This document shows positions 1 through 26,952 of a stretch of DNA of 64,000 bases, piece by piece (the first letter of the stretch is position 1; the number at the start of each line of letters is the position of its first letter). Under the pieces are notes generated by a model. That model was not told the DNA's origin and did not search any database. It saw only the letters and a program-made list of their open reading frames with translations. The DNA comes from Brachionus koreanus (lineage: Eukaryota > Rotifera > Eurotatoria > Ploima > Brachionidae). The position numbers and the translations under genes are program-made. The DNA lies in the NCBI GenBank assembly GCA_016987375.1, contig PJRA01000005.1, positions 3,876,043 through 3,940,042 on the forward strand. Reading direction: 5' to 3'.

Positions 1-1308
1 GGGGTTGGGGGGTAAACCTCGGACTAGATCCAAAAAAAAACTGGAAGAAGTATATGTTTTTACCATTTTTGGTCAAAAATCATGGTAAATTGTTATAAAA
101 AAAATACAAAATAAATTTTGTATTTTATTTGTATTTAAAAGATTATGAGCTTTCAGATTTGGTGAATATTTAATGAGTTATGACTATGAATACCTGAGAT
201 ATTTTGACTTGTTTTTTATCAATATTTTTTTAAATTCATGGTTCAATTATATTAATTTTAATTATTAGATTAAATTAAAATTTTTAATGATGGGTATTTT
301 GAGTAAATATTGAAATTGAAGCACTTAAAATTTAAAAGTTGAAAATTTTTAAAATAAATAAAAATTGATAGCTATCGATCATGATTACACTAATTTCCAA
401 TTATTTTTCAAAGTCAGATTAATGATAATTTTTATTATTTAATTGAATTAAAATTTTAAATTTTAATATGAAATATTTTAGAAAATTAATCATTTATTTG
501 CAAATAAAGATATAAAAAAAAAACACAAATTGATTAGACTAAAGAAATTTTAAGCGCAAAAATTTCTGTGAGATTCAATCGGAATAATTGAATTAAATTG
601 AATATAAATAAAAAATTTTTATTAATCATAAATTTGTGTTAACTGTAATGTTAAATTATTTAGGAGTATCAAAAAGTTTCGGGAAAATGAGGAAAATAAA
701 TTCAAGTTTTTATTTTTTCAGGCCATTTTCTATATCTTATTAACAAAGTTTCATTCTTTCACTTTACTTGCGAAAGGTCTATTGATACTCTGCTTTAAGA
801 ATATTATTAAGTATCTCTTTAATTTTGGGGTACCAATTGTTCTTGATTAGTACGATCGGGAAACAATCAAAAATCAAATGAAGCTAAATTTTGTGAGTAT
901 GCAGATGGTCGATTATACTCATACCATAATGAGCTATCAAAGTACCATTTGAAGTTCTTAGTGTTTTATTGAACATGAGGTTTAGAATGCTCAATCTAAT
1001 TAAAAAACAATTGAGAATCTAGCTTCGCATTTGACTTTTTCCAAATTTAAAATAACATTAAAATCATATTAATTAATAATGAATAAAAAATTTTTAATAT
1101 TTTTTTACTTAAATTAAAATTGTGTCTATTTATTTTAAAGACCTTAACCTCGGACAAATTTTGAGTTTTTTATTTCCAAATAACTCGACAAAAATACTTA
1201 ATCTATTATGAATGATTTAGTTTAAAATTTACATAAGAAGAAATTAATCTATCATTTATATTTAGCATGTTTTATTCATTAATTTAAAATTTAGATCTAT
1301 CTTCTGAA
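1..1308. other. AT-rich non-coding DNA
   Basis: No supported coding exon, RNA gene or repeat was seen on either strand. The sequence is low-complexity A/T with short homopolymers and many stops in all frames. Confidence 0.4.
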
Positions 1309-1845
1309 TTGATGGTGCACATACTTGGATTTTTGCTTTCCAGTGGTGAATTTAATTTTATCATTAGTCAAGAAAACACTTTTCAAAATATTCAAAAAAA
1401 AAATATAATGAACATTAACTCACCCGTATCTTTTCTTTTCAAACTTGTACGTCAAATATCGCGTCTTTGCATGGACGTTAATAGGCCAGAAAAGAATGTA
1501 CAGCGAAAAATAGCACGTGATTTGTGGGATAGCATAATTGAAATTTTTACTGATCTATCCAAAGCCGATCAAAATCAATTACAGAACCAAAATCGAGTTC
1601 TTCGAAAATTTTTTTTACTCATTAAAAATCGTCATGTTCGTACCATAGTCATTTCAGTATTATCAACTATTTTCAATGTAGCTGATACATAAGCAAATAT
1701 AGAAATTCACAATGAATTTAGATACTTGTGGCCATCTTCGCTTGCTACAATGACGTCTCTTAATCTCAACTCATTAACTGATTTACTGAATATTTTATTA
1801 ATAGATTCAATCGATTATTTGAATCCATTTGAAGTTAGTAGCTTA
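1309..1845 (+). pseudogene. INTS8: INTS8 C-terminal fragment, interrupted
   Basis: The open frame from about 1402 resembles the C-terminal third of Integrator complex subunit 8 as I recall the human protein. A segment reading ARKIARDLWDSIIEIF corresponds to the family's TAKDLWEVVVQIC stretch. It is followed by a hydrophobic FLLIKN..VRTIVISVLSTIFNV block and, further on, WPSS. The frame is broken by TAA at 1690-1692, between the IFNVADT stretch and the WPSS stretch. The alignment around it is nearly gap-free, so a skipped intron does not explain it. Homology ends near 1845, where a non-LTR RT scrap begins on the other strand. No start exon, upstream exons or 3' remainder are visible nearby. 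INTS8 is a nuclear Integrator subunit acting with the PP2A module on snRNA 3' processing and transcription termination. This piece looks non-functional. The identification rests on remembered family sequence. Confidence 0.6.
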
Positions 1846-2269: not shown

Positions 2270-3275
2270 TTATTTTAAAAAGCAGTTTGATAAGTTCGGT
2301 TTAATCGATATCGACGAGTTAGATACAATGGTATTAAAGGGCTAGAGAACAAGAAGTACTAAACTTGAGTAATTGCAATACGTGGTCAAAGAAAAATAGT
2401 TTGACAGAAAGCTCAGAAACCAAACAAGAACCCCAAAACAAGAACCGATGTATAATAGAGAATATAATATAATTCACAAAAGAAAATAAAGGATTTGAAA
2501 GAAATCAACCTGATTTTAAACATTCATATAATTTTAATGAGTTAAATAATTAGAGAATAGTAGGAATTCCTATTAACGATGGACCGTATCTAGAATATGT
2601 TCCAAGATTACCTAAATCTGTTAATAATATTTTCAAATATTAATCTATTATATATTTAAAATTAACCATTGACTTAAATAAGTTTAAGTTAATTTTTTTT
2701 TGATAACAATTAAAAAATTGGAAAAAAGATTTAACTTAAAAAGCTTTTGACTTGGACTTGTAGACATTTTTTTAATTATAAGATTCAAAATTTTCAAGTT
2801 TCGATTTACTCGTTAAGACTTATTCCTTACCAATATAAGTCTGAATAAATACCTAAATAAAGCCTAAAAGTATTCTTAGTTTATCTTTTTAATTTTTTTA
2901 AATTTAGTTAATAAAGCCTTTTAAGTTCTCGCATCTTGATCGAAGACATTAAAAATTAGATTTCTTTATTAGTCTCATATAAACTACGTCTTTAGAATTA
3001 ATTAAATTCTTAAAGGTCTAATTATTTTAGAATAAAATTTGATTAACATTGTTTGTTTACTTAATAAGTTAAAATATAATTATCTTGAAAACATTTATTC
3101 TTAGTAAAATATTCATTTAAATTAGTATTTAAAAAAATAATATTTTAATTGTGTGAGGTATGTTTTTCTTAATTTAATAAAATCTCAATTTTCAAATCGA
3201 TTTTTTAAGTATCCAACATTTATTGATAAATAAGTTAAAAAAATAAATCATAAAAATAAAATTCAATGCGCTCCA
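2270..3275. other. AT-rich spacer
   Basis: No supported gene. Only short open stretches occur, such as 2556-2642 on the plus strand, without recognisable homology. The 3' end of the minus-strand chimeric gene lies at 3276. Confidence 0.35.
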
Positions 3276-6200
3276 CTAATACCGATACTGTTGTTGTGGA
3301 AAGCGATTTCCTGCTGTTGACTGTAATAAAATGTTCGGTTGAGTTTGCTGTGCCAGCTGCATACCGTAGCCTCCATTCAGTCCAAAATTATTCAAACCAT
3401 AATTTTGGTATATGTAATTTGAACTCGTAAAAGGAATAACTGCTTCTTGCTGAAAATATGCATGATAATTAAGCCATTGATTTGTTTGAGCTGATTGTGC
3501 TTGATAGCCTATTGGCATCGGCTTTTCAATCGATTCACACATTTTTTTCTGATTGCTTATAGGATTTATGAAAGAACTTTGATTTTCAATGCTATTTGTC
3601 TGTTGTAGCTTCCCATTTCGTTCATACCCAATTGGTTTACTTACAGTCATATTATTTGGTATTTTGGTTGTATTTATTTTGTCAACGTTGTTTGATGAAG
3701 TTGACAAGAATGGTGACAAACGGTTCAATAAATCGTTTTCATTGAAAGACCATAGTTGACTGATGGCATTATAGACGCTTTCTTGCTTTGGTTCTAATTT
3801 TTCGGATGAAGATAATGAAGAGGATGTTGAAGAAGAAAAAGAGTTTGGTGATTGACTAGAGTAAATAGGTGTCGAGGGCGGCGGCACATCAATTTTTTTA
3901 GTGCTATTAATCTCTATCTTCAAGTCTTCAAGTTTTTCGGCTATTTTGTCGTTTTTAAATGGTTGAACAACAGAAACCGGTCTATGAATTTTGCTTGAAG
4001 CTAAAATTGGTTGTGAAACTGATAATGCTTTATCTTTAGCGTTTGTTACTTGAGATTGCTTAATTTTAGTTTGGGTATTGTTAGTAGGTTTTTTGGCTAC
4101 AGCTTCTGCAAAATTTTTTGGCTTATCTGATTGAGCATTTTGAGAAATTTTAGAAGTAACAGGTGCACTTTGATGCATTGTATTCGATTTTGAACCTCTT
4201 GAAATTGTTTTACTTTTAGTCTCATTTTTAACTGGCTTTGAGTCCACTTTTTCCTGGCATTCCACGGGTAATAAATATGCTAAACTAGCATTAGGATCAT
4301 CTATTAATGTATGCAACAGTTCTAGAGCGAACTCCACATATTCCATTGAGTCAGCACTTATTTCAACTGTATATTTGTCCAAATTCAATTTTGCACTGGT
4401 GATTTTCTCAATAAGAGAAAGATTTGAGTTATTGGTCCCCACAACTCGCGCAAATATATCATCTGGTATTATAAGTTTGCGTAAATTAGAAAAATTTTTA
4501 GACTCTTCATAAAAATTGTCTAATTCATTTATTTTAACAATTTTAGAATTATCTGTGCTAAAATCATCAAGTGAGTCCAATTTTGCCAACGAGCTTACTT
4601 TAACTGGCTCGAAATCGTCCAGATCGTTTAGTTTATTGACTGTTTTTTGTTCAGAAAAGTCGTCCAAATCACCAAAGCTCTTTTGCTTTTCCTCTTTTAT
4701 TTCTAATTCTTCTTCTTTAAATGTTTCTATTGTAGTTTGAGCTTTACTCTCTTTTTTAGTATGTTTATTGCTATTTTGTTGATTATTTTTTTTCTTGTTC
4801 TTCTTTTTCTTTTCAGATTTTACCTGATCTTTTTTATTTTGATTTTGAGATTGAGAACTTTTTTTACCCGAATTAACAATTTTTTGTAATTGCTTTTCTA
4901 GCTCTTTTTCAGCTTGTTCTTTGGCTTCTTTGTTCAATTTTTTTCTAATTAGTTTCAAATCCTTGCCCTTTTGATTAATTATCTCGTTCACGTTTACAGT
5001 GCTTGTCGTAGTGGTTGTATTAGTCGAAGTGGTAGACGCAGTAGTTGACAATGTGTCCATGTTTTCTTCTTTTTGCAATTTCTTGAGTTTTTTCTTAAGC
5101 TTTCGTTTCTCTTTTTTCCGTTGGGCTGCACTTTTAGGAGTTTGATTTGACTGCAAATTTTCCATCTGATTGAAAAAATCTATAGGCCTTAATTCTTCGC
5201 TTGGTAACTTGATAGAATGGTTTGAACAACATTTTTCATGTTGATGAAAATGCTCCTCATCTGGATAAAATTCTTCATCTTCATTATCAAAATTTTCTTC
5301 ATTGTCATCATCATAATCCTCATCGTCATCTAGAAATTGATGTTCTCCTTCCTCTTCATTGTCAATATCAAATTCTAAATGAGAAAAAAAAGCTAATTTA
5401 TTTTATTTTTGTCCCACACTAATCGCAATATGATATAGACAACTAATGAGTTAATAAATTTTGTATTGAAAAGTATCACCTTTATCTTTCGTCTCCATAA
5501 TTAGTTCCATAAATTGATGAAATTTTTTTTTCAAATCTTTATCTATATTCTTATGATTCATTTTCTGAACAAGTACCAAAAATGACTCTTCGGGAATTTT
5601 AGTAAAAACATTCTTTAATTATAAACTATGAATGATACGCATATTTAATTTTGGCTAAGATCTACTTTTAGATTGTTTTTTATACAGTTTTCAATCAAAA
5701 CCATTTTAGTTATAACTTGCTTAGTACTAATGTCATCTTCGTTCAAATTAGCACTATTTGAAAAAATTGTTGTCGTACAACTATCATCTTCAATATCTAT
5801 ATTTAACATTGATTTACATGCTATTAGATAGCTTTCCAATTCATTTGCGTAAGAGTCTAGCTCATTAACTTTGCTTTCTTCATTTGTCAGCTAAAAAAAA
5901 ATAATCTTTAAACGTGCACTTAAGTAAATCAAAATTTTGATTACTTTATTTTTATACTCCTTGACTGAATGAAAATAGTAAAACGCTTCTTCGTACTCTT
6001 CTTGTTGAAAAAAATACATTCCTAGATCATAGTTTATCTTTTAAAAAAACAATAATAAAAAAATTTTAATAATGAACGATTTTTTTCTGTAATAATAAAA
6101 ATACAAATTTATGTGACCGATTTCAGAAAAAAAAAATATTTTTTTCATAAAAATTTTAATAATTTATTTTAGGTATAAGAGGCTATTTAATTTTGTGGTT

Positions 6201-8214
6201 TTTTAAAGCAAGTATAGTATTTTTTTAGTTTAAAAGTTAAAAACTTATTTACATTATATTAATAAAATACATTATACTACTTCAATAACGGTTTTTTTTT
6301 AAAAAGAATGCATGCAATTTTTAAAATTTTCTTTAATACTTATCGATTAAGATTTGCCCCTTTCTAAAAAAACTGAAACATAAACATATTTTGATAGAAA
6401 TAAAATTTTTTAAAATAGCCTTTAAAATCTTACCATCTTATTTTTAATTTTTAAAAAATTTAATCAATTTTTTAGAAAAAAAAATTTGTCTTTATAACTA
6501 AATTTGAAATTTTTATTAATAATCAGTCGAGCTTTCTAGTATTAAATTTTTAACTTTTTTGTCAATAGACAAATTCATAGAAAAATCTACAAATTTTACT
6601 CATATAAAAAAAAACTGTTTATCAAAATATAATCAATCTCATTTGCAATTTAATAAAATATCCCTCAAAGATTATTTATCTGTTCTTTTCTTTTAAGCTT
6701 TAATTTGAATAATAGCCTTAAATAGAAATTTTCATTGCTTGTTGTACATAAGAACGTATACGTTTTTTCGTATATAAATTGAGGGAGATGAGCCGTGGAT
6801 TTGTAAATGGAAGATATCTGTTTCAAAATCCATTTTAAAAATTATACCATTGATATAATTTCTTTATAACGAAGAAATAAATCGAAAATGCCCAAATCAA
6901 TATTGGACAAAAGATTTTGGAAGCTTATGGAAGAATTAATCTCTAAATATTTGTATCCTTTGAAATCACATGACACAAAATTCTATCCAAAATGAAGTTG
7001 CTATTCAATTAAAGACAACTTTTTGTGAAAATAAAAATTCTTCAGTTACTTTTTGTTGGAAAAGAACTGTTGACCAGATCCAAATTGAACACAAAAAAAT
7101 TCATATTTGCTAATTTATAAAAATAATAGAATCGATGCGAGATAAATAAAGAGTTGAGTTCAATTGTCTCATCCTTAATATTCTTTTTTAGAAATATTTT
7201 TTTTTTCTAGAGATTAATTGCATTTAAAAAAAAAATTACACTTATTAAATTGAAGAGATATTTTTCTAATAGCAGAAACATAGGTATCATTGACCCAAAT
7301 TTACAATATTTTTTATTTTTCCAAAAACAAAAAAAAAACCTGCAAAATCCAAATAACTTACTATATTTCGTAATTCGTTTTTATCATATTTAATCATATT
7401 ATTCCAATTGAGATCAAAATTATAGACATCTTTGTTAGTTTGGTCATTTCGGATACTAAAACACGACGATACTGGCTTATAAAGGTCGTTGTTATTGAGA
7501 TATTTGAAAAAAAATTCTAAATAATCAATAGTTTCTTTTGTACTAGTTGGACCAAGTTTTTTGTTTTTTGGCTTCCCACAACTTAACAAATCAAAAATCT
7601 TTTAATCGAAAAGTTACTTTTATCGAATTTTACTAGTGATTTTTGGATGATAATTTCAACCTTAGATTCCATCTAAGATAAAATTGAAGCACAAATATTT
7701 GCTCCTTTTCAAGTTTAATCAAATCTAAACTGGTAAGTTTTTTAAGTTTATATGTTTTTGACTTTGTACAATCCTGATGTAAGTTTGTCAAAAAAATTAA
7801 ATAGTCCATCAAATCGCAGAGTTCAACGAAAGGGATTCTTAATGTTAAATTAGGGAATATCGCTTGCTTTTTAAATATTTAAGCGTACTCTTTTTCTAAC
7901 TCGTTCAGGTTCCAATTAATTAAACAAACAGCCTTGATGGCCAGAGTCTTTAGCAAAGAGCACTTGTTCTCTTCGTCGCTCATTAGCTTTGATTCCTGCA
8001 AAAGTTCTAGTATAAACGAACTTATTGAATCTTAACGAGAATTGTTAGCTAATTGAAATTTGAAAAATCATTTGTTACCTAAAAGGTTATTTGTTTCTTC
8101 CTCATAATCATCAGAGCTATGAGATTGTCGCAATTGTTTTATAGCTTCTTCGAATTGCTCTAGTTGATTGATCGATTCGTCAATCAAATTTTTGTATTTT
8201 AAAAAACTAGTCAT
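3276..8214 (-). CDS. Chimeric INTS8 N-terminus / Mask (ANKHD1) C-terminus, KH domain
   Basis: Eight exons join in frame with GT..AG ends: 8214-8079, 8030-7889, 7837-7634, 7581-7362, 6037-5945, 5890-5666, 5612-5480 and 5374-3276, giving 1083 aa. Residues 1-340 resemble the INTS8 N-terminus: SFILELLQES..LLKTLAIKAV..WNLNELEKE, a TPR-like YDLGMYFFQQEEYEEAFYYF at about 237-256, then ESYLIACKSML. From residue 341 the protein instead matches the plus-strand Mask gene just downstream. DKDLKKKF..FMELIMETKDKE parallels DKDLIRKC..CMDAILKAKEKQ. Next come an acidic stretch, a Lys-rich AAQRKKEKRKLKKK (Mask has AAQRKREKRKMKKK), a KH domain at about 683-765, FAEAVAKKP and KPIGYER. Ankyrin repeats are absent. 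Introns are about 50 nt except intron 4 (about 1.3 kb). The KH loop reads GTNN, not GxxG. Transcription of the whole chain is inferred; two separate genes remain possible. Confidence 0.6.
6043..7361. other. Long intron 4 of the chimeric gene
   Basis: AT-rich sequence lies between a good GTAAGT donor (7361) and an AAAAG acceptor (6038). A 36-codon plus-strand frame near 6888 has no recognisable homology. No other element is supported. Confidence 0.35.
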
Positions 8215-9711
8215 TTTTGTTAAGATGATCTGAATCAAAATTAACTAAAGAATTTAATTGTGTAGTTTTAAAAATATTTAAAGTTTGATGGAAAGCAAGT
8301 AAGCAAGAAATAGAAAATATTAGCAACATTTTAATAGAGGAGAGAATGAAACAATATTTTGGAGCTATAAAATAATTATGTTAATGAATTCAAATTGAAT
8401 TTTTCAAATTTCAAATTTTTTCATATTTGTGTGATTTGCACGAGATGCTTTGAAGGTTTCGAATTTTTAGTTATTTCATTCCTTAGGGTAAAAGCAAACG
8501 CTTCAAGTTGGCTACAAGTCGATTTTGTTTGGTCTTATTAAAATATCAAGTATTTCTTGAAAAAATATCGATTTCCATCAATTTAGTCTAGTGATTTAAA
8601 TTGCTATTTTAAACAAGTCTTCACCTTTAACTATTTCTAAACCTTATAAACAAATAAATTTTCTTTTGACTTATCTAAATTTTTTCAGACTGATAAAAAG
8701 ACTGAGTGCTTCGGATTTTAAATGAAATCTTTTAAATTTTTGTCGAATGACAAAGAACTAAATTGATGTAGATTTTTTTAATTATTTAATATTTATTTAT
8801 TAATAAATTTTGATTTCGAAAAAAATTTAAATTAATTATTTTCAAAACCTAATCCTGTGATAAGTTGACCAACCTAATTCACTTTATTTATAAAATTACT
8901 CAAAAACTTGAATTGAAATTATTCTAAAGTTAATTCAATATTATTTAAAAAAATAAGCTTGGCTAATAATTTTAGAGTGCTATTTTAATGACCTATTTGA
9001 TAAAATTTAATATTTTTTTATAAAATTTTTAAATAAATGCAAGCTTTTTATTCAATTGTACAAATTTATTAGTTTGTTTGTTATTTTAGCATTTCGAATT
9101 CGTTTCTTTTTTTCTCCTCTTAGTTTCTTATTCTTAACTATTCCAATAGTGAACTTATAAGATTATGAATTTGTCTTCATTAATACTTTTTTAACATAAA
9201 TTATTTTTTTTTTTATAGCGAACAAATACATATAAGCTAAACGATACACCAACAAACTTCTAGGTTAACACAATAACTTAATTTTTCGATTGATTATTGA
9301 TTATTACTGTAAATCAGTTTAAAATAACTAAATTAGTTATTTAACTCAGACAAAAATTGGAAATATATCTAAAAAAATTAAATAAAACTTTACTTCAAAA
9401 TCAAATCTTACATTACAAAATTTGCTTAAAAATAATACAACTAATAGCATTCTAAATGTTTGTTTAAATATCATTTGAAAATACTTGACTTAATTGAATC
9501 GGGTTTTAAGATAAATAAAAAGAAAAAAAATGAAATTTTTATGCATGATAAGAGCTAATAATTTAACATACTTACAATGGGCGGTCTCACAAGAAAAAAA
9601 TCTAATACTTATAAAAATGTCTTCATAATATTTGAAAAAATCTGTTTTTCTAAATTTAAGAGATTAAAAAAAATTAACAAGTACTAAATAAATTAGACTT
9701 TTTTAAAATTT

Positions 9712-9732
9712 CAACAACAACAACAACAACAA
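9712..9732. repeat. (CAA)n microsatellite
   Basis: Seven CAA units in tandem, in a non-coding AT-rich setting. Confidence 0.85.
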
Positions 9733-10331
9733 TAAGAATAGCAAAAATCGCAAATATTTGCTTTAAAAATAATAAATTTAAAAAAATTAAAAGAAATTTT
9801 AAAACAAAAATAGAAATTAGACTCCTAGAAATTAATACTGAAACAAATTTAAAACTACAAAAAATAATTGATATGGTAAAAATAGTTTATGGTGTTGGCT
9901 TATTTATTTCGAAAAAATTAACTATTCTTTCCTTTGAATCAAATTTTTAAAATTAATTTAAGCTTTATGAAAATGAATAAAAATTTTATTATCTTTTAAA
10001 TTTAAAAAAAAATTATACTTATAAAATTTTAAGTGTTTTAAAAAATCTTTCACATTACTTACTTGATCAAATTGTTTAGATAGTTTTGAAATCAGACAAA
10101 AAATTTGTGCTTTTTTCAATCATACAAATCATTTGTTTTGATATTAATAAATTTGCATTTCAGATGCAACAGACTGTGTTTTTGCAAATGCATAAAAATT
10201 AAATAAAAATAAATTATTATAAATTATTTAAGAGAAGAAAGAAAATCGAAAATTTTCATTCTTTAACAAAATAAACTCATAACACGAAGAGCTTTTGTTG
10301 TTCATACTATTGAAAGAAAATAAAAAAAAAA

Positions 10332-10350
10332 AGAGAGAGAGAGAGAGAGA
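10332..10350. repeat. (GA)n microsatellite, upstream of Mask
   Basis: A run of GA dinucleotides follows an A tract about 100 nt before the Mask start codon. GA runs near promoters can bind GAGA-type factors in animals. A regulatory role here is only an inference. Confidence 0.8.
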
Positions 10351-10449
10351 ATAAATTCTATCGTTCTAACCAATTAAAATTTATATAATAACATTAACGT
10401 TATCTATTTTAAAGTTTTACTTTTTCTGTAGTTGTTATTTTGAGAAACA

Positions 10450-13400
10450 ATGGATATTGAAAAACTGAGCAAATTAAAGCCACGAAACCGTAACAACACG
10501 AATACGGCGCGTAACAAACTTTCAAAAAAGAACAAATTTGTTTTGTCGTCACAGCCGTCCGACAAAAACAACAATCTTGAACGCTTGAACTCGAAACTAA
10601 ATTCAAATTTTATTCAAAAAATAAGCCTAAACCAGGCCGACGATGATAATGAAATGAATCAAATCGAGAGCTTTGTGTTCAACGAAGACGATCCGGACAA
10701 TGTCGAAGAAGTCGATGACGATGATGACGAAGACGACGGCCTCAATCTGCTTAAAAACAGACCCAAAAACTATGCTCAAATCGACAACGATACTAAGCTA
10801 AAATTGGAAGCGTTGCTTGCCAATGCCGGCATAGAGTCTATAACCGGCGATTTGTTCAAAGATCCTCAAATAATGCAAACACTAACGACTACTTACGTGC
10901 GCACACTTAATGAAGTTGTAGCCAAAACAAAATTAAAAAAAAGTGTCAAGCCCAAAAATGAAACAACCAAAAGCAGCAACAAGAATATCAACGAAGTAGT
11001 CGAATCAACGTTCGAGGAGTTTATCCTCGCTGCAGCGGCCGTAGCCGCTGCTTCTTCGTCTTCGAATTCGACCATGTCAAACAATGGAGACGAAGACGAC
11101 GAAGAGCTTACCGAAGCCGACATCGAACATCACAATTACATGATTCAGAAACTCGACAAAACAGATAAAAAATCGACCAGCTCGAGCTCAAGTTCGTCAA
11201 GCTCGTCTCTAAAGCAAACTATAAACTCATGTATAGGAAATCTCACTAGTCCCGAATCGCTACTTAATAAATTGATCGACTTAAAGCCCGACTTGGTCAA
11301 TTCAGATAAAGAAGCGTTGGATGCTTTGACCCAAGTAGCTAATAAAAAAATAGCCGTTGGCAAAAGTCTCACTGAACTATTGGAAGAGAACGCTGATTCG
11401 GTTCTAGGCTTAGCTTGTGCGAGCGGCTATCTGGAACTAGTCAGCGTTCTACTAGCTATAAATTCAAACTCAAATTTGGACACTGTGTCCAAATCGAAAA
11501 TAAAAAATGAATCGACGCCACTTATTGAAGCATGCTCGAACGGACACGAGCAAATTGTCGAACTCCTGTTAAAACACGGAGCTAATCCGAACAAAAAGTC
11601 ATCCAGTGGATCTACGCCACTTCATTATGCAATAACAAATCAGCACGCCAATATTGTTAAAAAACTAATCGAATCATGCAAACATAACATTTTGATTGAA
11701 CAGACTAATGAAAATGGTCACACACCTTTAATGGAAGCTGCTTCGAATGGATACTTGGATTGTGTCAAAATACTTGTCGAGATTGGCCAAGTCAATGTAA
11801 ACACATACTCGGCTGAATTCAAAGAAACAGCTCTTACTTTAGCAAGTTACAAAGGTTTGTTTTTTATTTTTTCAACAAAAAAAAAAAATCATCTATTTTT
11901 TGTATGTTGTTTTAGTTTTTGATTCGAAAATTTTTTTTCAAGTTTTAAATTAATTACCAGGGTTAGAAAATAAATAAAAAAGTATGCTAAAATTTAATTA
12001 AGTAATTTGCTTTTTTTTTTTTAGTTATTATAAAAAAAATCTCAATTTTATAACTTTATTTCACTCTTTTTTTTTTCCTTACGTTCGATCATTTCATTTA
12101 TTCAATAATTTTTTCATTCATTGATAAATGTTAGTTGTTGATCTAAACTATTTTTTAATTCTCTAAAACAGCTTTAAAATGAAAATTGTGTGTTCATGTC
12201 ATGTAAGCCAACGTTAGTCATTGAGGAAATTAATGACACGCTTACGTCACGTGATTAAAAGCAACATCATAGCCTTTTTATCCTAATGACAACATACACA
12301 ATACACAATATTTTTTTTTCTAAATTTTCCTTCCAATTCGGTTAGATCATTTGTTTTCAAAAAATTTTTTACTGAATTTTTTTGTTATTTAGAAAAAAAT
12401 AATTTTGTTAAAATGTTTGATAAATTTGACTTTTTTTCTAGAATTTTTAATAAAAAAAGCCAAATTAATTTTCTAAAAAATGAACAAATCACTCGGCAAA
12501 CCATAAATAATTTAAGAAATAAGTTTAATTTCGATTTCGAATTCAGAAGTTTTTTTCCTTTCTTTCTTATTCAGTCCATGTTAGAGCATATCAGCCATAT
12601 ATTAACGGTCGGGTAGTTAGCCCGACGTGCTTGCAGTCGGAACTGACCGACCTCTTCTGATTGAAGTCGGATGTCCAAACCACTACACTATATGACCGAC
12701 CGCATTCAGAATATATGAGTGAAAAAATTTTTTCTTCCTTTTTTGTAGTTGAGAGAAACGAGTCTTTTAAGCACATGTGTGTTTATGCTTTAAAATGTTA
12801 AAAGAAGAAAATGATTTTGATTCTACCACTCTACTTAAATTTGATAAAAAAAACAGCATACTAAAAATAAAAAATAAAAAAATTGATTACAAACTATTAA
12901 AAAAACTTACCTCTCTATTCTTTAGTTGTTAAAGTAAAATAATAAAAAAGTTAAAGTAAATTTTAAAAAAAGATTATGTTTATTTTTTAAAAACTGCAAA
13001 AAATTAAGTTTCAAATAAAATTAAAAAAAAAAAAATTTTTTTCTTACAGTGAGATGTTGTTTAATTAAAAAAAATATTTAAGGTCATGTCGAAGTAGTGA
13101 AGTATTTGCTGGAAAAAGGAGCAGAATGTGAGCACAAAACTGACGAAATGCATACGGCATTGATGGAAGCCTGTATGGATGGCCACATCGAAGTCGCCAA
13201 AATATTGATCGAACATGGAGCTAATGTAAACATGCCGCCTGATTCCTTCGAGTCGCCGTTGACTCTTGCAGCGTGTGGAGGCCATGTAGAACTAGCCGAT
13301 TTGTTGATAGACAACCATGCTGATTTAGAGGAACGAAACGATGAAGGCTACACACCGCTGATGGAAGCTGCTCGAGAGGGCCACGAAGAAATGGTTGCCC

Positions 13401-16400
13401 TTCTTTTGTTCCACGATGCGGACATTAATGCGATAACAGACGAGACCCAAGAAACAGCGCTTACTCTAGCTTGCTGTGGTGGATGTTACGAAGTAGCCAA
13501 ATTCTTGCTCGAGGCCGGAGCCGACCCTAATCTTGGCAATGCTTCTACGCCGCTCATGGAAGCAGCGCAAGAAGGCCATCTTGAACTTGTTCAATTGTTG
13601 ATTAAAGCTGGCGCTGATGTCAACAAATTTTATACAGCTCTCATCACCAACGGACAAAATACAACACAAAATATAACAAGCTGTGAATCTGCGTTGAGTC
13701 TGGCTTGTGAAAATGGTCATACGGATGTAGTAGGCTCACTTATTAAGGCTGGGGCCGAGCCGGACCGTGCCGATCCAGACAAGGGCTTTACGCCGCTAAT
13801 GAAGGCGTCTAGGTCCGGACAGCTTTGTACAGTACAATACTTGGTCAACAATTGCATGGTTGACGTTAATAGAGCGACTAAAAACAACGACTCGACCGCA
13901 CTAAGTCTGGCATGTTCAAACGGACACATGCAAGTTATCGAGTTTTTACTGCAAAGCGGAGCCAATCCTTTATATGTTCTAAAAGATAATAGCAATTGTC
14001 TAATTGAAGCATCGAAAAATGGTCATGTTAAAATAGTCGAATTGCTAATCGATTGGAATTATTCGTTAAGCGAAATGGACGAAACGAAAAAGTCAAAGAG
14101 AAAAAATTTGAAAATAAATCTCAAGCCGAAATCGTCACAAAACGAACCATCGTCTAGTTTGGTTAAACAAATAAAAAAATCAGTGACCAAATTAGACACA
14201 ACGTCGGACTTGGGCGTGGAAAATTTGGTCAACGTTTTGCATCATTTTGCTTTTGGCGATATACCAACAGAGACCAAGACGAAAAAAAAACGCAACAAAG
14301 ACGACATTAGTCTAGTGTCGATCGAAGAATTCTGCGAATGCAAATGTCAAGGCAATTGTAATGAAACGCCCGACGACAAATTGCTGCACTTGTCTCTTTC
14401 GATCGGCTCGAAAATAGACGAGACCGATTGTGAACAAGTGATGGAGTACGAGAGTGACGAGGATGAGGCGGACGACGAAGACGAGGACGAACAAATAAAG
14501 AAGAAAGAGAACCTACTGCAAGAATTGTTGAAAATAGAAAAACAACTGGAAATTCAGCGCAAGTCGAAAATTAAAAATCAAAATTCGAACTATGACCACA
14601 TGAGCATGATCAACAAATATTTGATTAAGCGGTGTCAATGCGAGCTAAATCGTTTGTACAAAATAAAATTGAAGCAATTACAAGAGCAGAAAATAAACGA
14701 AATAAAAGCTGAAAAGATAAAAAAGTGTTCGAAAAAATCGACTAGTAACTCGTCGACACCGAAGAGCTCAGCATCGGAAGAATGGCTGCCGCCACCGCCG
14801 CCTCCGTTCGCCGCCGCCGCCGCCTATCTAATACAACAGTCGATGAAGTCCAAGGCCAGCCAGCAGAATTCGCCGCACATCGATCTTGACATGGCCACCG
14901 AGACCAACAACGACACGGCTCTAACGGTGGCCGTTCAAGGCGGCCACGAAGACCTGGTCAAACTACTGATTGAAAAGGGCGCACACATCGAACACAAAGA
15001 CAAAAAGGGCTACACGCCACTCATACTAGCTGCCAGTCTGGGACATCATCGGCTAGTGCAACTTTTGCTACTTTACGGCGCCAATGTCGAAGCACAATCG
15101 GATCGAAACAAAGACACGGCTTTGTGTGTGGCAGCTCAAAATGGCAAATACGAGTGTTGTGAAATTTTGCTAACCAAGGGACAGGCCAACAAGGAGCATA
15201 GGAACATAAGCGACTACACGCCCTTATCGTTAGCGGCGTCAAACGGCTATGTTAACATAATTAAATTGCTGTTGTCGCACGGCGCCGAAATTAATTCACG
15301 CACAGGCTCAAAGCTGGGCATATCGCCGCTAATGCTGGCCGCAATGAACGGTCACACACAAGCAGTTAGATTTCTAATCGAAGCCGGATCGGATGTTAAC
15401 TCGCAAATAGAGACCAATCGAAATACGGCTTTGACGCTGGCTTGTTTTCAAGGTAGAGCCGATGTAGTGAGTCTCTTGTTGGACAAAAAAGCCAATATAG
15501 AGCACAGGGCCAAAACTGGCCTGACTCCTTTGATGGAGGCGGCCTCGGGCGGCTACGACCAAGTAGGCCGAATATTGCTTGAGCGTGGCGCCGACGAGAA
15601 CGCTCTACCGGTGCCAACAACCAAGGACACCGCTCTTACAATCGCTGCCGAAAAAGGACACGTCAAATTTGTCGAATTGCTCATACAATACGGAGCTCAT
15701 TTGGAGGCCAAAAACAAAAAAGGCTGCACGGCTCTGTGGCTGGCTTGTAATGCCGGTCACTTTGATGTCGTGCAAACGCTCGTATTGAACAACGCCGATT
15801 CGGATTCGTTCGACTCACGACGAACATCGTGTCTAGTTGCTGCGTTCAGACGTGGTCATGTGAAAATATGCAAATTTCTAGTGCGTCATGTTAAGCATTT
15901 TGCGCCCGACCAAGAACTAACTAGATACATTAATTCGTTGGTTCAGGCCGACGATAAAGACTTGATTAGAAAATGCCAAGATTGCATGGACGCTATTCTA
16001 AAGGCAAAAGAAAAACAGGCTCAAGAAGCCAACAAATATGCTAGTTTGCTGCTCAAAGAACTCGATCAGGAAAAGTCCAGAGAGCAAAGCAAAAAGTTGG
16101 CCGCTCAGCGAAAACGCGAAAAAAGAAAAATGAAGAAAAAACAGCTAAAAGAGTCCGAAGAGGACAAAGAAGAAGAAGAGTACAAAGAAGACATGGAACT
16201 GAGTGTCGAACCGGACGTGATAATGCCAAGCACCGAGAGACTCATTCTAGACAAGGATTTGGCTGAGAGTACGCCCGAGCCCGAACCAATCGAACACACT
16301 GTTCAAGTGACTGAGCATGTGGTCAAAACGNNNNNNNNNNNNNNNNNNNNNNNNNNNNNNNNNNNNNNNNNNNNNNNNNNNNNNNNNNNNNNNNNNNNNN

Positions 16401-18860
16401 NNNNNNNNNNNNNNNNNNNNNNNNNNNNNNNNNNNNNNNNNNNNNNNNNNNNNNNNNNNNNNNNNNNNNNNNNNNNNNNNNNNNNNNNNNNNNNNNNNNN
16501 NNNNNNNNNNNNNNNNNNNNNNNNNNNNNNNNNNNNNNNNNNNNNNNNNNNNNNNNNNNNNNNNNNNNNNNNNNNNNNNNNNNNNNNNNNNNNNNNNNNN
16601 NNNNNNNNNNNNNNNNNNNNNNNNNNNNNNNNNNNNNNNNNNNNNNNNNNNNNNNNNNNNNNNNNNNNNNNNNNNNNNNNNNNNNNNNNNNNNNNNNNNN
16701 NNNNNNNNNNNNNNNNNNNNNNNNNNNNNNNNNNNNNNNNNNNNNNNNNNNNNNNNNNNNNNNNNNNNNNNNNNNNNNNNNNNNNNNNNNNNNNNNNNNN
16801 NNNNNNNNNNNNNNNNNNNNNNNNNNNNNNNNNNNNNNNNNNNNNNNNNNNNNNNNNNNNNNNNNNNNNTAAAATAAATTATTTTAAAAAATACTTATTT
16901 ATCATCGTTTAAAAGTCCGAATTATTTATCAAATAGAATGATTTATCAATCAGAATAAAATTATTTATCAATCGATTAAAAGTCCATGTTTCAATGATTT
17001 TTATTAAGTTATTCAAGAAATGAGAAAGATTTTCTCTCAATCGAAGCGTATGTTTATTTTTAATATTATCATTTGTTGACATAAAAGCGTTGTTTGTACT
17101 CTGGGAACCGGGAGCAGCTCCTTCATACCAAAAAAACGATCATCCAATTGTTCTTTTTTAACTTCCTTTACCTCGATTTGTTTGAATTTTGGTTCATATG
17201 CTCTTTTAACATGAGCCCAACAAGAAAGACGTCTAGAAATTAAAATTCTTTCAATTGCAAGTGTAATTGCATTAGCATAAATTATAGATTAAATGATTTT
17301 TTTAATTAAATTGTAATTGTTATTTAATTGTAAATTTACATGTAAAGATCGAAAAAAAAAACAAATATCTTCAGTAGTTTATTAAGTGATTATAATAACA
17401 CCTATCTGATAAAATAACCCTTTTTTATCTTCGTATCCAATCAAATTAACTGGATGACCTTGATAAACTTTTATATATCTTGTATTTAGACCAGATAAAA
17501 GCCATGATAATGATCCTTTTGGTTTCGAAGCATACTGACATTCTGATTTTCATCAACACAATTGAGATGCATGCGAGCCCGACATTTCTAATTAATAAAA
17601 CATTTAAAATATTCTTTTATTCCATTTTTGGTAATGTGATTTTATCGTGACGATGCAATGACAAAAAGCTACAAACAACGAGTTCTAGTACCAGCGAGTA
17701 AACTAGAACGCATCACTGCTGTGTGCACCAAATCGTTGACCAATATTCAAGTAATTGAAAATTTGACAAAGTGTGCTTTAAAAATAGAAGAAGCCAAGCT
17801 TAAATCATCGAGTATTGGCGAAAAATATGTTCTGATAACAGGCAACTGTTTAGATCAAACAAAGTATGCCTATGAGCTTATTGAGACTTTGATCAATGAT
17901 CCTTTGGCCAACTTGGCCAATTTGTTGCCCAGCAGTGAGCCAGAGCCGCCAATTGTTCAGCAGCAAAGTGCATCAAAACAAAAACAAAAAGCTGCTCACA
18001 AGCCAAAAACAGTGCCGGCCGTTCAACAGCATGTGAATGCAAAGCCTAGAAATTTTGCCGAAGCTGTGGCCAAGCCGGTCAATTGGAGTCGACGTCATTC
18101 GGTATCGCCATCCAAGCCGGAGAAAAAAATCGACAAACCGGTACAATTGGTGTCGCCTATTAAAAAACAAGATAACGACGAAATTAAGCATCCGGGTGCA
18201 CCACCGTCAGCTCCTTTGCCAGCCAAAATTGAGTTTTCTGTAGCTCAAGAGGACAGTCATGCCTATGAGCCGTTAATATCGAACAAAGTTATAAACGAAG
18301 TACTCTCCGATATACTGTCTCCTAATTTCAATCAAGTAAACAAGCCGTTGAGCAGTCCGAGTCTGAATCTTAACGAGCCGATGCCCATAAAGCCAACAAA
18401 GCCCATTGGCTATGAAAGACATGAAAAACAGTTTAGAAATTCTAATCAAAATTTGGACCAGAACAATCTGAATCAAAACGGTTGGATGATAAACAATTCG
18501 ATGGACTTTTTGTCTAATCTCAATCATCAAATGGTGTTTAGTTCACAAATGAACTTGTTACCAACAAATTCTCAGCTAACAAACCAGTTTAACATGTATC
18601 ACAATTTTCATAAGCCGATCACACCAGCGCACACACCGCCTATATCGATTGGGACAATGAATGCAGGAATTATCAATTATACCGGCAACTATGCCAATTT
18701 TCCGGCAAATCAAGCCCCTCTAATTCAACACAGTCAAATGCTTAACACGGCACCGCTTATGCATAGTGCAGTACAAAGCGCACCTAATCAACAGCAAAGT
18801 TTAATAGACAACTTTTTTTTCAGCTCTAAATCGACTGGATTTAATTATAACAACTTTTAA
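10450..18860 (+). CDS. ANKHD1: Mask/ANKHD1-like ankyrin and KH domain protein
   Basis: A large cytoplasmic scaffold of the Mask/ANKHD1 family, known as a Hippo/Yorkie and JAK-STAT co-factor. Exon 1 (10450-11854) has a basic and acidic low-complexity N-terminus, poly-Ser and Ala tracts, and the first ankyrin repeats. Exon 2 starts at 13083; the join gives ASYKGHVEVVKYL, a seamless repeat. Exon 2 encodes the rest of array 1 (to about residue 795), a charged linker with poly-Pro (about 1037), array 2 (about 1067-1408, opening TETNNDTALTVAVQGGHEDL) and a Lys-rich coil. It then enters the gap at 16331. The KH exon probably starts at 17669 after ...CAAAAAG and ends TAA 18858-18860. An in-frame TGA lies 21 nt before the ATG at 17658, so that ATG is probably not a real start. 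The KH loop lacks GxxG. AATAAA overlaps the stop. Two long arrays then KH is the family layout. Confidence 0.88.
11855..13082 (+). other. Mask intron 1
   Basis: A 1228-nt intron, GTTTGT..TTTAAG. It is far longer than most introns in the window and contains a SINE-like insertion (12605-12702). The splice phase (1) restores a canonical ankyrin repeat, which supports the boundaries. Confidence 0.75.
12605..12702 (-). mobile_element. tRNA-related SINE-like element
   Basis: This is a GC-richer island inside an AT-rich intron. On the minus strand it reads TATAGTGTAGTGG, close to a tRNA A box. About 45 nt later comes GGTCAGTTCCGACTG, a degenerate B box. Repeated GTCGG/CCGAC segments make it self-complementary. 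No full cloverleaf with a paired acceptor stem was found, so it is called tRNA-derived rather than a tRNA gene. Confidence 0.5.
16331..16869. other. Assembly gap (Ns)
   Basis: 539 unresolved bases lie within the Mask locus, directly after the Lys-rich coil. The missing DNA may hold the end of exon 2 and further Mask exons. Confidence 0.98.
17137..17590 (-). mobile_element. FLYWCH/MULE-type DNA transposon remnant
   Basis: The minus strand carries two fragments in family order. At 17590-17486 a frame reads KCRARMHLNCVDENQNVSML followed by HYHGFYLV and stop. This matches the C-terminal half of a FLYWCH zinc finger (CxAR..., HxH). At about 17275-17137 comes RRLSCWAHVKRAYEPKF, like the MULE transposase 'CW.HV' segment. 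Frames are disrupted between them and no terminal repeats were identified. It lies in the Mask intron before the KH exon, opposite to the gene. Confidence 0.6.
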
Positions 18861-20480
18861 TAAAAACAAATATAAAGCAGGAAATTTGTTTTCTTTTTTG
18901 TTTATTTTTTTTTTTTGTTTATTTTTTTTTTCTTTTTTTAGAAACTGACCTTTTTTTAAAAAGAGTTTTTTTAGAATTTTTAATATTTTACGTTTATTAT
19001 TTAAGCTAAAAATATCGTTGAATAAATATTTTGAAATGATAAATTAGACTATAAGAAAAAGAAATTTTCACTTATTTTTTTTTCTTTTTCAAATTTTACT
19101 TATAATTTTTAACTTAATTGGATATGTTTTTCTAAAAGAAATAGACTAGAATAAATACAGTTTAAGTAAAGAGGAAATTTTATTTGCCATAGTATTTTAA
19201 TTGAAGCGCTTCGATTTCTTTTTAAAGATAATAATAATTAGCTAGGGCAGATTACCTGCGGAGCGAGACTGGTTTTTGCCTCGGTAAGATTAATTTGATT
19301 TATTATGAAAGAAATAATACAAATTTATTATTTTTATTTATTTATTAAAAAAAGCGATGTTAGTAAAATATAGTATAAACATGTAGAATAAAATTAATTA
19401 TTTGATTTGACACTAAAATTTTAAAAAAATTTATTAAGATAAGAAATTATTAATTTTTTCTGAAAATTTTTTCATTTTATAAAAAATTAATTTTAACATT
19501 TTTAGCTAATAAAATCAATTTTTTAAAATTTTATTTACTAAAGGCGCCTCAATATGATAGTTGACCATCGACAACCTTATTTTTTTTTGTATTTTTTATG
19601 ATTATTTGAATCTTATAATAAAGGAAAATACAATATTTAGCCATTTGAATTTGCAAACCTAGGAAATTTTTGAATGAATTCTCTCAAAGATTTAAAAAAA
19701 AAAAGTATCGTGTCTTTAAACTGAATATTTCATTTAAAATTTTTATTTTAAATTTTCGTATTTTGCAAAATAATATTTGTTACTCAGAATTAACATTGAG
19801 AAAAAATCGTGTAATGAAAAAAAATACAAAAATAAAAATTTTTCATTGTAATGCATTTTCAAAGCCTTCCAAAAAATTAATAATATCTTTATATAAAACT
19901 TTTAAATCGGCTTGTTTTAGGATCTTTTTGCACTTTACGTAAAGAAAGTTGACATATCGCATAAGTAAATAGGAAATAACCAAATATCTATAAACACGGT
20001 AATGTTTTTCAACTGACTTGTCCTTTTTAAAATTTTTTCCAACAAGTCATTACTTTTAATTGAAAAATTAAAAATTTTTCAAATTATTTATTTTTTTTGA
20101 AAAATTTTGACCATAAAACTTAATTTAAACTTAAATAATCTAAAAAAATCTAAAAAAAGGAATATCCTCATAATTTAAAATAGAATTTTTATAAAATTAT
20201 AATCTAAATAATTGTTAATTTTATTTTTCTAAATATTTTATAATTTAGAAAAATTCAAAAATTTTAAAAATTTAATTAAAGTTTTTTTGGTTAATTTTTA
20301 AAATAAAAGAGTAATTAATTTGTCTTACAAAACTATTTAACGAATATTAGTTGTAAAAAAAATAAATAGAGATATTAAATAAAAAGCATTTTTTAAAATA
20401 ATTTATTTTATTTAACTAAAGGAGAGAATAAAAGGCTAAATTGAAAACAAAAAAATAATCTATTTTATTTGATGTTTAGT
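18861..20480. other. Intergenic region, Mask to myosin 3' ends
   Basis: These are convergent 3' ends, Mask rightward and myosin leftward. The stretch is AT-rich with T and A tracts. A short GC-richer patch near 19247-19287 (CCTGCGGAGCGAGACTGG) was not identified. The 90-codon plus-strand frame at 19670 is low-complexity and unsupported. Confidence 0.4.
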
Positions 20481-23400
20481 CTATTTTCTAACAGATTGAG
20501 CTCTTTGTGGAACTGAACTTCCGGCACGTGTTTGGTCTCTCTTTAAAAAAAAAAATGAATTAAATTTCAAAAACTAAATTTTGAACAGCTAATCATACTT
20601 GAGGTGAATTATTTCTGGCTTGTGAAACAGAACTTCGATTTTTGGCTCTTTGTTTGTTTAGCAAATTTTCAGCTTGTCCAGCTCTTTCTTCTGCATCTTC
20701 TAAGTCATGCTGAACTTTTCTAAATTTAGCTAAATTGATTGATGCTAATTCTTCTGCCTCCTCAATTTGTTTCTTGTAGACTTTCAATTTGTTTTGCAAT
20801 TTGTCAATCAAATCCTGCAATCTAGCTTGATTTTTTCTATCTTCTTCAGATTGATTGGCAAGTTCTTTCAATCTTCTGTCGTTCTTTTTAACTTCTTTCA
20901 AAGTATCTTGATGACGTTTTTGTTCAATGTCCAATTCTTCTTCTAATTCGTGTATCTTATTTGGAAACAATCATAAAAAATGAAAAAGGCTATAAAATTA
21001 ATAAATAATTTTTACTCTTTGTTCCAATTTTTGTATAATTCTCTTTCCTCCTTTAAGAGCACTTGATTCGGCTTGGTCAAGTCTAGTTTGTAGATCTCTT
21101 ACTTGTAACTCTAAAGCTTTTCTTAATTTTTCAACATTTGATACATGTTCTTGTTCAACACGCAATTCTTCAGCTAAACGAGAAGCGTCACCACTAGCAA
21201 CTTTAACTCTATCTTCTGAATTTTTCAATTCAACAATAGCTTCATCTAAGTCAGATTGCAACGAAGCTAGATCGTTTTCTAATTTTCTTTTCAATGCTGC
21301 CAAACTTGATTTGGAAGCTTCTAATTCGCTGATTCTATCAGCAGCATCATGTAAATCATTTTCGGAAGCTTTGCGAGCTTTTTCGGCTTGTTCTAATGCA
21401 GTTCTAATTTCTTCAAGTTCCCCATCTAAAAGAATAACTCTTCTCTCAGCTAAAACAACATTTTCTCTAGCTTCATCGCGCTTTCTAATTTCATCATCAA
21501 TTTGAGATTGCATTTCGTTTATTGTTTGCTGCAACTTTTTGTTTGTCTTTTGCAAGTCTGCATTTGCACGATTCGAATGATCTAATGAAATTTCTAGTTC
21601 GTTAATGTCACTTTCTAGTTTCTTTTTTTGTCTAATTGCCTCAATTTTTCCTTTTGTTTCGGCCTCAAGACTTGCTTGCATTGATTCAATGGCTCTTTGA
21701 TGATTTCGTCTTGTATTCTCAAACTCCTCTTCTTTTTCGTGTAATCTACGATCAATTTCTTGTCTAACTTGACTCAATTCCAATTGAGCTCTTAAAACTT
21801 TGGCCTCTTCTTGCTCCAAAGTTGATTCAAGCTCTTCCAATGCAGTCTGTAATTCATCTTTTTCAGCTTCAATTCTCTTACGTGACTTTTCTAATTCATG
21901 AACTGATTTGCCCCCGTCACTCAATTGAGCCATTAAATCTTTTAATTCATCGGCTAGATTTTTATTTTCACGTTTTAATGACTCAATTGTTTCGCTACTT
22001 TGATCAAATTGAGTTTTCAATTTAAACAACTCTGTAGAATATTGACGTGACTCTTTTTGTGAAGACTCAAGCTCTTGAGTTATGTCTTCACATTTTTGCT
22101 TCCATTCACCAATTAATTTATCAAATTGTTTCTGTTTTTTTTCCATTGCAGAAGCATTTGAATTTGCACGCTCAACATCTACCATCAAATCTTCTACTTC
22201 ACTTTGCAATTTTTGTTTTGTCTTTTCCAAACTATTACATTTGGCCAATGCTTGTTCAACTTGCTCTTCGGCTTCGGTCAATTTGGCAGCCAATTTTCTC
22301 TTAGCCTCCTCTAATTCTTCAGCTCTAGCTAAGCCTTCTGTTTCATATTTTGATCGCCATTGTTGTAGATCAACATTTAATTTAGCCAATTGTTTTTGTA
22401 GTTCAGCCTTGGCGTCACGCTCTTCGTCACATTGATCTTTAGCTTGTTCTAAATCTGTGTTCAAATTACGCAATTGTTGAGTTAATGAAGCTTTGGCTCG
22501 CGATTCTTCTTCTGCATTTCGTTTAGCTTCTTCAATTTGAGATTGTAGTTGCTGCTTAGTTTTGCCAAAGCCACTAATTTGACTTTCCAAATCTTCAATT
22601 TGTTGTATTAAATTTGAATTTTCAGAATGTAAACGTCCTTTTTGAGAATTCAATTCGTTCATTGATCGTGATGATTCATCCAATTTTGAATTTAATTCTT
22701 GTATCTGTAGTTCAAGCTGTTTGACCAATTTTTCCACATTGGCCTTTTTAAAATGCAATGTAATGTAATTAAAAAAATAAAATTTTTTTTAACCAAAGAC
22801 AAAAGACAAAAAAATATTTTTAACAAAGAAAAAATAAAAAAATAAATGCAATAGTGTTTTTACTTTAGCTTTATTTGCTTGCTCAGTTTGGACTTTGGCT
22901 TCGTCAACTTCAGATTTAACAAGTTGCTTTTCTTTTTCTAGTCTAATTAATTAATTTAAATTATTTTAAAATAAAACATTTATTTATTTATTTAATTCAA
23001 TATTTAAACATACTTGTTTTTGGCTTTCTGCAACTGATCAATTTGCTCACCCATTTCGTTTACAGCATCTTGATGTTTTTTTCTCAATTGTGCCGTGGTT
23101 GCTTCATGCTGTAAATTAGCTTCCTCAAGATCACGTCTCAATTTCATCAATTCAGCTTCTCGTTTTTTGTTCAAATCTATTTGAGCTGTTGTGGCACCAC
23201 CAGCTTCTTCCAAGCGTTCATTTAACTCATCCAATTCTCGAGACAAGTCGGCTCTCTGTTTTTCTGCTTTTGCTTTTGATTGACGCTCCGATTCAATCTC
23301 TTCTTCAGCCTCTTCTAAACGCTTTTGCAATTCTTTTATTTTCTTTTGCATACTTGTTGATTGTCCATGTTCTTCTTCAACTTTTGAATTTAGTTGATTT

Positions 23401-26400: not shown

Positions 26401-26952
26401 ATTAATTTTCTAATTATACGTAATAAGCATAGATTGATTTTCTCTATCTACCAACATGCTAGCATAGGCATTGTCTGCAATTGAGTACAAATGTGGTGGT
26501 ACTTCGTTCTTTTTTTTTCCACGATATAAATCTACCATTTTCATAGTATAAACAGGCAAACGTTTATACGGATTGATTACAACACAAAAAAGACCTGAAT
26601 AGGTGTAAATCAACCAGCTCATGTAACGAGTTCTCAAATTATGCAAAATTGAGGCGTCGTTCAAATAAGTCAAGTCAGCCATGTCTTCGCATTTTTCAAA
26701 CTTTGGCGGATTCATTTGCTGAAGTTCATCTTTTTTCACTGTAACTGTTTCTCCCTTGGAAGTTTTTACAGTTACTTGATCTCCTTTTTCGCTTTGCACC
26801 TCACATGCCAAAAAGCCCTCTTTCTTGTCAACTACCCAAAAGTTTTTCTTGCCATCAAACGGCTGAGATTGGGCCTTAATTTTTTCGGCTTGTGGAACAA
26901 GTAAATACTTGAGAGATTCAACAATCTCTGGATCATTCAAATTAGCGTACAT
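20481..26952 (-). CDS. Mhc: Muscle-type myosin heavy chain (class II)
   Basis: Nine exons join in frame: 26952-26420, 26366-26264, 26193-26092, 26021-25859, 25750-23014, 22942-22864, 22743-21016, 20955-20599 and 20540-20481. They give 1953 aa, close to the usual 1930-1960. The N-terminal SH3-like region (from about residue 30) is followed by the P-loop GESGAGKT at 179-186, split by an intron just before it. Then come NNNSSRFGKFI (switch I), DIAGFEIF (switch II region), a Lys/Gly loop 2 (KGKAKKGG) and the converter. One IQ-like helix ([14 protein letters not shown]) precedes a continuous heptad-repeat rod and a short basic Ser/Arg tail (RAQSVRK). This is the ATP-driven motor of thick filaments. 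Most of the motor and proximal rod sit in one 2.7-kb exon. No alternative exon cassettes are visible, unlike fly Mhc. A non-coding 5' exon may lie upstream. Confidence 0.97.

Follow-up and report, generated by a model that had tools for sequence, protein, structure and literature searches.

Does a minus-strand reading frame in the genome of the rotifer Brachionus koreanus encode one protein assembled from pieces of two genes, or are two genes read here as one? The frame lies at 8214-3276 of a stretch of 64,000 nucleotides (contig PJRA01000005.1, positions 3,876,043 to 3,940,042; "the window", to which positions refer unless a contig is named), and its product begins like INTS8, a subunit of the Integrator complex, and ends like the tail of the adjacent Mask-like gene. 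From the sequence comparisons described below, it is very probably a functional chimeric Brachionus gene, in which duplicated pieces of two genes, the first third of INTS8 and the tail of the adjacent Mask gene, have been joined, and which is kept by purifying selection and shared with B. plicatilis and B. calyciflorus. The window belongs to contig C8 of an 83.3-Mb assembly of 92 contigs, and searches of this whole genome score only the best candidates.

The two parts of the reading frame

The eight exons of the gene (Table 1) join into a single frame of 1083 codons plus a stop, and all seven introns have GT..AG borders, with sizes of 48, 51, 52, 1324, 54, 53 and 105 base pairs (bp). A first-pass annotation of this DNA had given the same coordinates, strand, exon number, borders, phases and codon count, all of which were reproduced, as was the 5666/5612 junction across the phase 0 intron 6. 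The end of exon 3 was settled by the orthologues: an end at 7661, giving a 1074-codon model, was dropped because the orthologues have LRLKLSSKNHY there, and the end at 7634 restores those residues. A suspected premature stop in exon 2/3 was gone once the 51-bp intron at 7888-7838 was recognised. Intron 4 (6038-7361) is far longer than the others and is indel-rich between the two copies of the gene.

Profile-profile comparison aligned residues 71-349 of the chimera with residues 72-349 of INTS8 (probability 99.9, expectation value (E) 1.2e-33). Residues 1-375 of the first gene model matched, besides two orthologues, the protein P0003 of B. calyciflorus (E 3e-32), which is a true INTS8, matching PDB chain 7cun_H (Integrator complex subunit 8) with E 3.7e-62 and the Pfam family TPR_INTS8 with E 2.4e-75. 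Identification of the chimera as INTS8-like goes through Brachionus INTS8, for which the PDB search gives Integrator complex subunit 8. The likeness of residues 1-340 to INTS8, proposed at first pass, was borne out through Brachionus INTS8, up to about residue 349, but not directly against the human protein, and the captured piece, described there as half of INTS8, amounts to about a third (349 of 1036 residues). In a Pfam scan, residues 1-375 of the first model gave sub-threshold matches only and no family over the cut-off; precomputed annotation places Pfam accession PF26725 on both full-length database chimeras and on three database INTS8 proteins. The predicted structure of the B. plicatilis chimera matched INTS8 best and KH domains next.

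The neighbouring gene, which we take to be Mask (ANKHD1), is observed to hold two ankyrin arrays and a tail. A search meant to identify it as Mask returned general ankyrin proteins only among the best 60 of 449 matches, and another gave bacterial ankyrin families far under their cut-offs, so that the name Mask was not confirmed. Residues 461-1080 of the chimera matched the tail of this gene as it stands on a second contig, C59 (probability 99.4, E 3.1e-21), so that the proposed likeness of residues 341-1083 to Mask is borne out within this genome. A further match, which is weak (probability 8%, E 0.004), begins at about residue 364, at DKDL...MELIMETKDK, and pairs with the Mask segment behind the second ankyrin array. 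In comparison with this neighbouring gene of the same genome only, the landmarks of the tail come in the same order: the DKDL segment, AAQRKxEKRKxKKK, the LDDF motifs, the KH position, KPxNFAEAVAK and KPIGYER. The LDDF-like motifs number four per chimera and two in the Mask tail. Ankyrin families, many of which are found in the neighbouring Mask gene, were absent from chimera exon 8, P0001 and P0002 (the B. plicatilis and B. calyciflorus chimeras) in a Pfam scan.

Since the similarity to INTS8 reaches about residue 349 and that to Mask begins at about 364, the fusion point is probably located between these residues, inside exon 7. The annotation had placed the start of the Mask part exactly at the end of the second ankyrin array, which is close; on the 1531-codon Mask frame of C59 the array extends to about residue 939 and the similarity to the chimera begins at about 958, some 20 residues behind it. 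Where it has the protein Mask-like "from the next exon on", the beginning of exon 7 is still INTS8-like.

Conservation and the alternatives to a single gene

P0001 (1092 amino acids) and P0002 (1105 amino acids) align colinearly over the full length of the window protein, with whole-alignment identities of 77% and 63%, respectively, and the INTS8-like part is 78% identical to that of the B. calyciflorus chimera. The 34 residues across the join, TKQVITKMVLIENCIKNNLKNVFTKIPEESFLVL, are identical in all three, and the same junction is found in one predicted protein each of B. plicatilis and B. calyciflorus. Two further proteins, P0004 and P0005, match exon 8 only and are uninformative on the join. 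A search for the fusion beyond Brachionus scored 7988 candidates and gave five proteins with an E of at most 0.01, three of them named Brachionus, with a limited sensitivity from which absence outside the genus does not follow.

Contig C59 (220,545 bp) is homologous at 124960-143275 to window 3054-21298, with 83-95% identity in the aligned blocks, and is either the other haplotype or a duplicate. It carries large runs of N. The C59 chimera has all eight exons open and 1084 codons. Between the two copies, the ratio of nonsynonymous to synonymous substitution rates (dN/dS, Nei-Gojobori) was 0.112 overall (44 nonsynonymous and 85 synonymous differences), with values of 0.074 in residues 1-340, 0 in exon 7 (0 and 1 differences), 0.125 in exon 8 and 0.063 across 80 codons that include the surroundings of the KH domain. 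Third codon positions account for 16 of the 23 differences in residues 1-340. No indel separates the copies in exons 1-7, where 24 of 1153 sites differ; in exon 8 the differences number 105 in 2099 sites, with one 3-base indel. The identities of introns 1-7 are 96, 92, 92, 89, 85, 92 and 96%, with indels in introns 4-7. The better conservation of the INTS8-like part within the chimera clade suggests that a constrained surface has been retained there, and the open exon chain of the second copy, together with a colinear protein in two species, argues for a likeness beyond chance.

Several results weigh against the reading of a functional INTS8-Mask chimera. Neither residues 1-375 of the first model, searched with phmmer, nor a profile of three chimeras matched human INTS8 among the PDB sequences. 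In a tree of the INTS8 part the four chimeras form one group (100/100), but on a long branch of 1.5 changes per column, and their attachment among the INTS8 proteins was not fixed by the tree; a clade of the chimeras with Brachionus INTS8 was neither shown nor rejected by the approximately unbiased test (p 0.196), so that the INTS8 part may have been copied within Brachionus or before it arose. The alignment behind the predicted structure held three true INTS8 rows, so that the structural match is not wholly independent of sequence. With an alignment holding one INTS8 row, the N-terminal part of the model was of low confidence, only the KH domain was modelled well enough, and neither program listed an INTS8 chain among its 50 matches. 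P0001 and P0002 are predicted proteins, whose public records read "hypothetical" and "unnamed". As for the KH domain, the family KH_1 is over its cut-off in P0002 and P0005 and under it in the window chimera, P0001 and P0004 (3 of 5), and the KH loops (GTNN, GTKN, GPKN, GSKN and GTKN) lack the second glycine in all five chimeras, so that RNA binding by the chimera KH may be weak.

Two genes, for example in an operon, would also account for the locus: a truncated INTS8-like protein ending in VDLSQN at a stop near 5645, and a Mask-tail gene starting from the ATG of MNHKN, with cis- or trans-splicing at 5612. If intron 6 is retained, an in-frame stop does follow VDLSQN, the methionine of MNHKN in exon 7 is conserved in all three species, and trans-splicing occurs in rotifers. 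However, the 17 residues before this methionine, NVFTKIPEESFLVLVQK, are identical at 17 of 17 positions in B. plicatilis and at 15 of 17 in B. calyciflorus. They contain no methionine themselves and an in-frame stop lies directly upstream of the exon 7 splice acceptor, so that exon 7 must be spliced to exon 6 for these conserved residues to be coded. Moreover, the VDLSQN ending is not kept on C59, the frame being altered by a 1-base deletion; the similarity to INTS8 extends beyond the 5666/5612 junction; and the records of the two other species give a single protein. The conserved residues, the upstream stop and the single-protein records led us to reject the two-gene reading, which we regard as highly improbable. 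That the chimera is a duplicate formed recently and now decaying, or an artefact of assembly, is barely conceivable, for although its contig also carries the broken INTS8 fragment (1288-1833) and the window begins directly after a run of 13,035 N, the dN/dS of 0.11, the absence of broken exons in both copies and the colinear protein in three species lead to the rejection of both, short of an error shared by several assemblies.

Departures from INTS8 and the position between both parents

Over the shared part, the chimera is 31-34% identical to Brachionus INTS8. Human INTS8 and all four other INTS8 proteins compared, two of them from Brachionus, contain the motif WFEF, which none of the four full-length chimeras has; alignments disagree on which chimera residues stand opposite it. 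WFEF is reportedly the contact of INTS8 with PP2A (Drosophila IntS8 work, 2020), and a search of open-licence papers for this role found nothing. A segment of about 25 INTS8 residues around PGSLSSLQHMKDANENIL is missing from the chimera as well. TPR_INTS8 (PF25756) is found in the INTS8 proteins P0003 and P0006, and a shorter one, P0007 (601 amino acids), shows none; a Pfam scan found no TPR_INTS8 in the chimera pieces, P0001 or P0002, indicating that the chimera is not itself an INTS8.

Both parents can be identified and are still present, INTS8 on C59 and Mask on both C8 and C59. The true INTS8 occupies C59 from 121752 to 118506, where N begin, with residues 6-673 visible and WFEF present; the chimera runs from 130169 down to 125184, with INTS8 3.4 kb downstream on the same strand; and Mask lies on the other side of the chimera on the opposite strand, so that the chimera sits between its parents. 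In the window, Mask was confirmed to lie 2.2 kb from the chimera on the opposite strand. The INTS8 fragment of the window is oriented opposite to the intact-looking INTS8 of C59. A genome search with residues 1-375 of the first model gave 13 matches (six to the C8 chimera, five to the C59 chimera and two to C59 INTS8), and one with the Mask tail gave four, namely Mask and the chimera, each on C8 and C59. For INTS8 residues after about 867 the assembly gave no match; this part of the gene may be hidden in runs of N.

The position of the chimera between its parents fits an origin by local duplication, in which Mask's tail may have been transferred to an INTS8 duplicate or the INTS8 piece to a duplicate of Mask. 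Because a separate INTS8 is present, the fusion used a duplicate, and because it is common to B. plicatilis and B. calyciflorus, it is not recent. Intron 1 of C59 INTS8 and intron 1 of the chimera are both in phase 1, splitting an Asp codon as G|AT a few residues before what is seemingly the same helix. Phase 2 is shared by intron 2 of C59 INTS8 and intron 3 of the chimera, at positions that are only roughly alignable, and the chimera has extra introns where INTS8 has one long exon.

The Mask tail exon in the window is broken at about 16331-17651 (539 N and about 780 bases), and the same exon on C59 is one open frame of 1531 codons. C59 INTS8 (119628-121752) is 86% identical to P0003 in residues 31-164 and 48% in residues 165-489.

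Table 1. Positions of the chimera and of related features (window coordinates unless C59 is named).
Feature	Position	Strand	Remarks
Chimera exon 1	8079..8214	-	Start codon at 8214; residues 1-45.3; ends in phase 1, Asp codon split G|AT
Chimera exon 2	7889..8030	-	INTS8-like
Chimera exon 3	7634..7837	-	INTS8-like; ends in phase 2
Chimera exon 4	7362..7581	-	INTS8-like
Chimera exon 5	5945..6037	-	INTS8-like; contains INYDLGMYFFQQ
Chimera exon 6	5666..5890	-	INTS8-like; last residues ENCIKNNLK
Chimera intron 6 (junction 5666/5612)	5613..5665	-	Phase 0; 53 bp in the window, 52 bp on C59
Chimera exon 7	5480..5612	-	Probable site of the fusion; like INTS8 up to about 5586 and, by a weak match, like Mask from about 5543
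Chimera exon 8	3276..5374	-	Mask-like tail; stop codon 3276-3278
LDDF-like motifs of chimera, four	4512..4673	-	Two in Mask tail
Chimera KH domain	4314..4478	-	Pfam KH_1 at E 0.0015 and 18.6 bits (cut-off 21.5); GTNN loop, not GxxG
Mask-like gene, source of the chimera tail	10450..18860	+	Ankyrin exons begin at 10450 and 13082; the tail exon extends to 18860
Mask KH position	17640-18860; C59 138572-139489		No KH_1 match on C59
INTS8 fragment, residues 667-857	1288..1833	+	In-frame TAA 1690-1692; broken copy of the other parent

Possible roles and comparison with known systems

What could such a protein do? One possibility, put forward tentatively, is an adaptor that ties Integrator to the RNA or protein partners of Mask. 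INTS5 associates stably with INTS8 in one module, and PP2A recruitment depends on the shoulder module (PMC7980224, PMC9006982). The INTS8-like helical module of the chimera might still dock on an Integrator partner such as INTS5, as INTS8 does but without the phosphatase, and the Mask tail would supply a KH fold and short acidic LDDF motifs. Lacking WFEF and the TPR half of INTS8, the chimera would not replace INTS8 but act beside it.

The KH domain bears on what the Mask tail might contribute. KH_1 on the matched piece of the chimera gave E 0.00024 and 21.2 bits, against a cut-off of 21.5, and the KH position of C59 Mask gave no KH_1 match up to E 10 and has no GxxG loop. That Pfam recognises a KH in the chimera (under the cut-off in this species, over it in P0002 and P0005) and none in the Mask of this species suggests a division of labour, with the chimera perhaps having taken over some of the KH role of Mask. 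A fuller version, in which this role moved onto an Integrator-derived scaffold, Mask kept its ankyrin arrays but no recognisable KH, and the chimera became a lineage-specific accessory subunit without a PP2A anchor, linking Integrator to Mask's targets, is rather doubtful. The KH loop of fly and human Mask is GRGG, and changing GxxG to GDDG lowers RNA binding; Mask with a mutated KH loop still rescued microtubule and synapse defects (PMC8572007), suggesting that a KH domain without GxxG need not be idle, nor need it be required.

A role outside Integrator has close to an even chance and is at least as likely as that of a docking adaptor: the gene would be real, with its INTS8-like part neofunctionalised and perhaps serving Mask's partners only. 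The low identity to Brachionus INTS8 and the loss of WFEF and of the segment around PGSLSSLQHMKDANENIL speak for this, but the INTS8-like part has the lower dN/dS (0.074, against 0.125 in exon 8) and a higher identity to B. calyciflorus than the whole protein (78% against 63%), as would be expected if a constrained surface was kept. It is unlikely that the chimera is a dominant-negative or decoy INTS8, competing for a partner to yield Integrator without phosphatase; the distribution of WFEF would suit such a decoy, but the PP2A role of this motif is a matter of report.

Gene fusion itself is a known kind of event. Like jingwei of Drosophila, a chimeric new gene that arose by duplication, the rotifer chimera is a new gene from two parents and under selection; unlike jingwei, it has other parents, both of which are its close neighbours. 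With INTS8 (PDB 7cun, 8rc4 and 9eof) it shares the N-terminal helical domain and differs in the losses described above and in its foreign tail. Mask, ANKHD1 and ANKRD17 combine ankyrin repeats with one KH domain; the chimera shares the order of tail landmarks with the neighbour that we presume to be Mask, but lacks ankyrin repeats and has a detectable KH domain, which the Mask of this species does not. Its KH loop in the window is GTNN, in contrast to GRGG in fly and human Mask (PMC8572007). Mammalian ANKHD1-EIF4EBP3, described as an evolutionarily conserved read-through of ANKHD1 and part of the downstream gene (PMC10454556), is likewise a conserved fusion using the Mask/ANKHD1 gene, whereas the rotifer chimera is a separate gene made of duplicated pieces in which only the Mask tail is kept. 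In the open-licence literature on Brachionus gene fusions (judged by titles and opening lines of abstracts), on rotifer Integrator subunits and on ANKHD1 fusions, no report of an INTS8-Mask fusion was found.

The locus would offer a clear case of a new animal gene formed from two unrelated flanking genes and kept in several Brachionus species, with one half derived from a core RNA polymerase II termination and phosphatase machine that is usually treated as fixed in animals. If the chimera binds Integrator, rotifers own an extra Integrator adaptor; if not, the surface of a core scaffold has been put to other use. Decay of the KH in the parent beside a KH kept in the chimera makes a transfer of function between neighbouring genes testable.

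Elsewhere in the window, open frames on the minus strand at 20593-26997 and 28317-29567 presumably encode a myosin heavy chain of the muscle type and a peritrophin-like protein that binds chitin, respectively.

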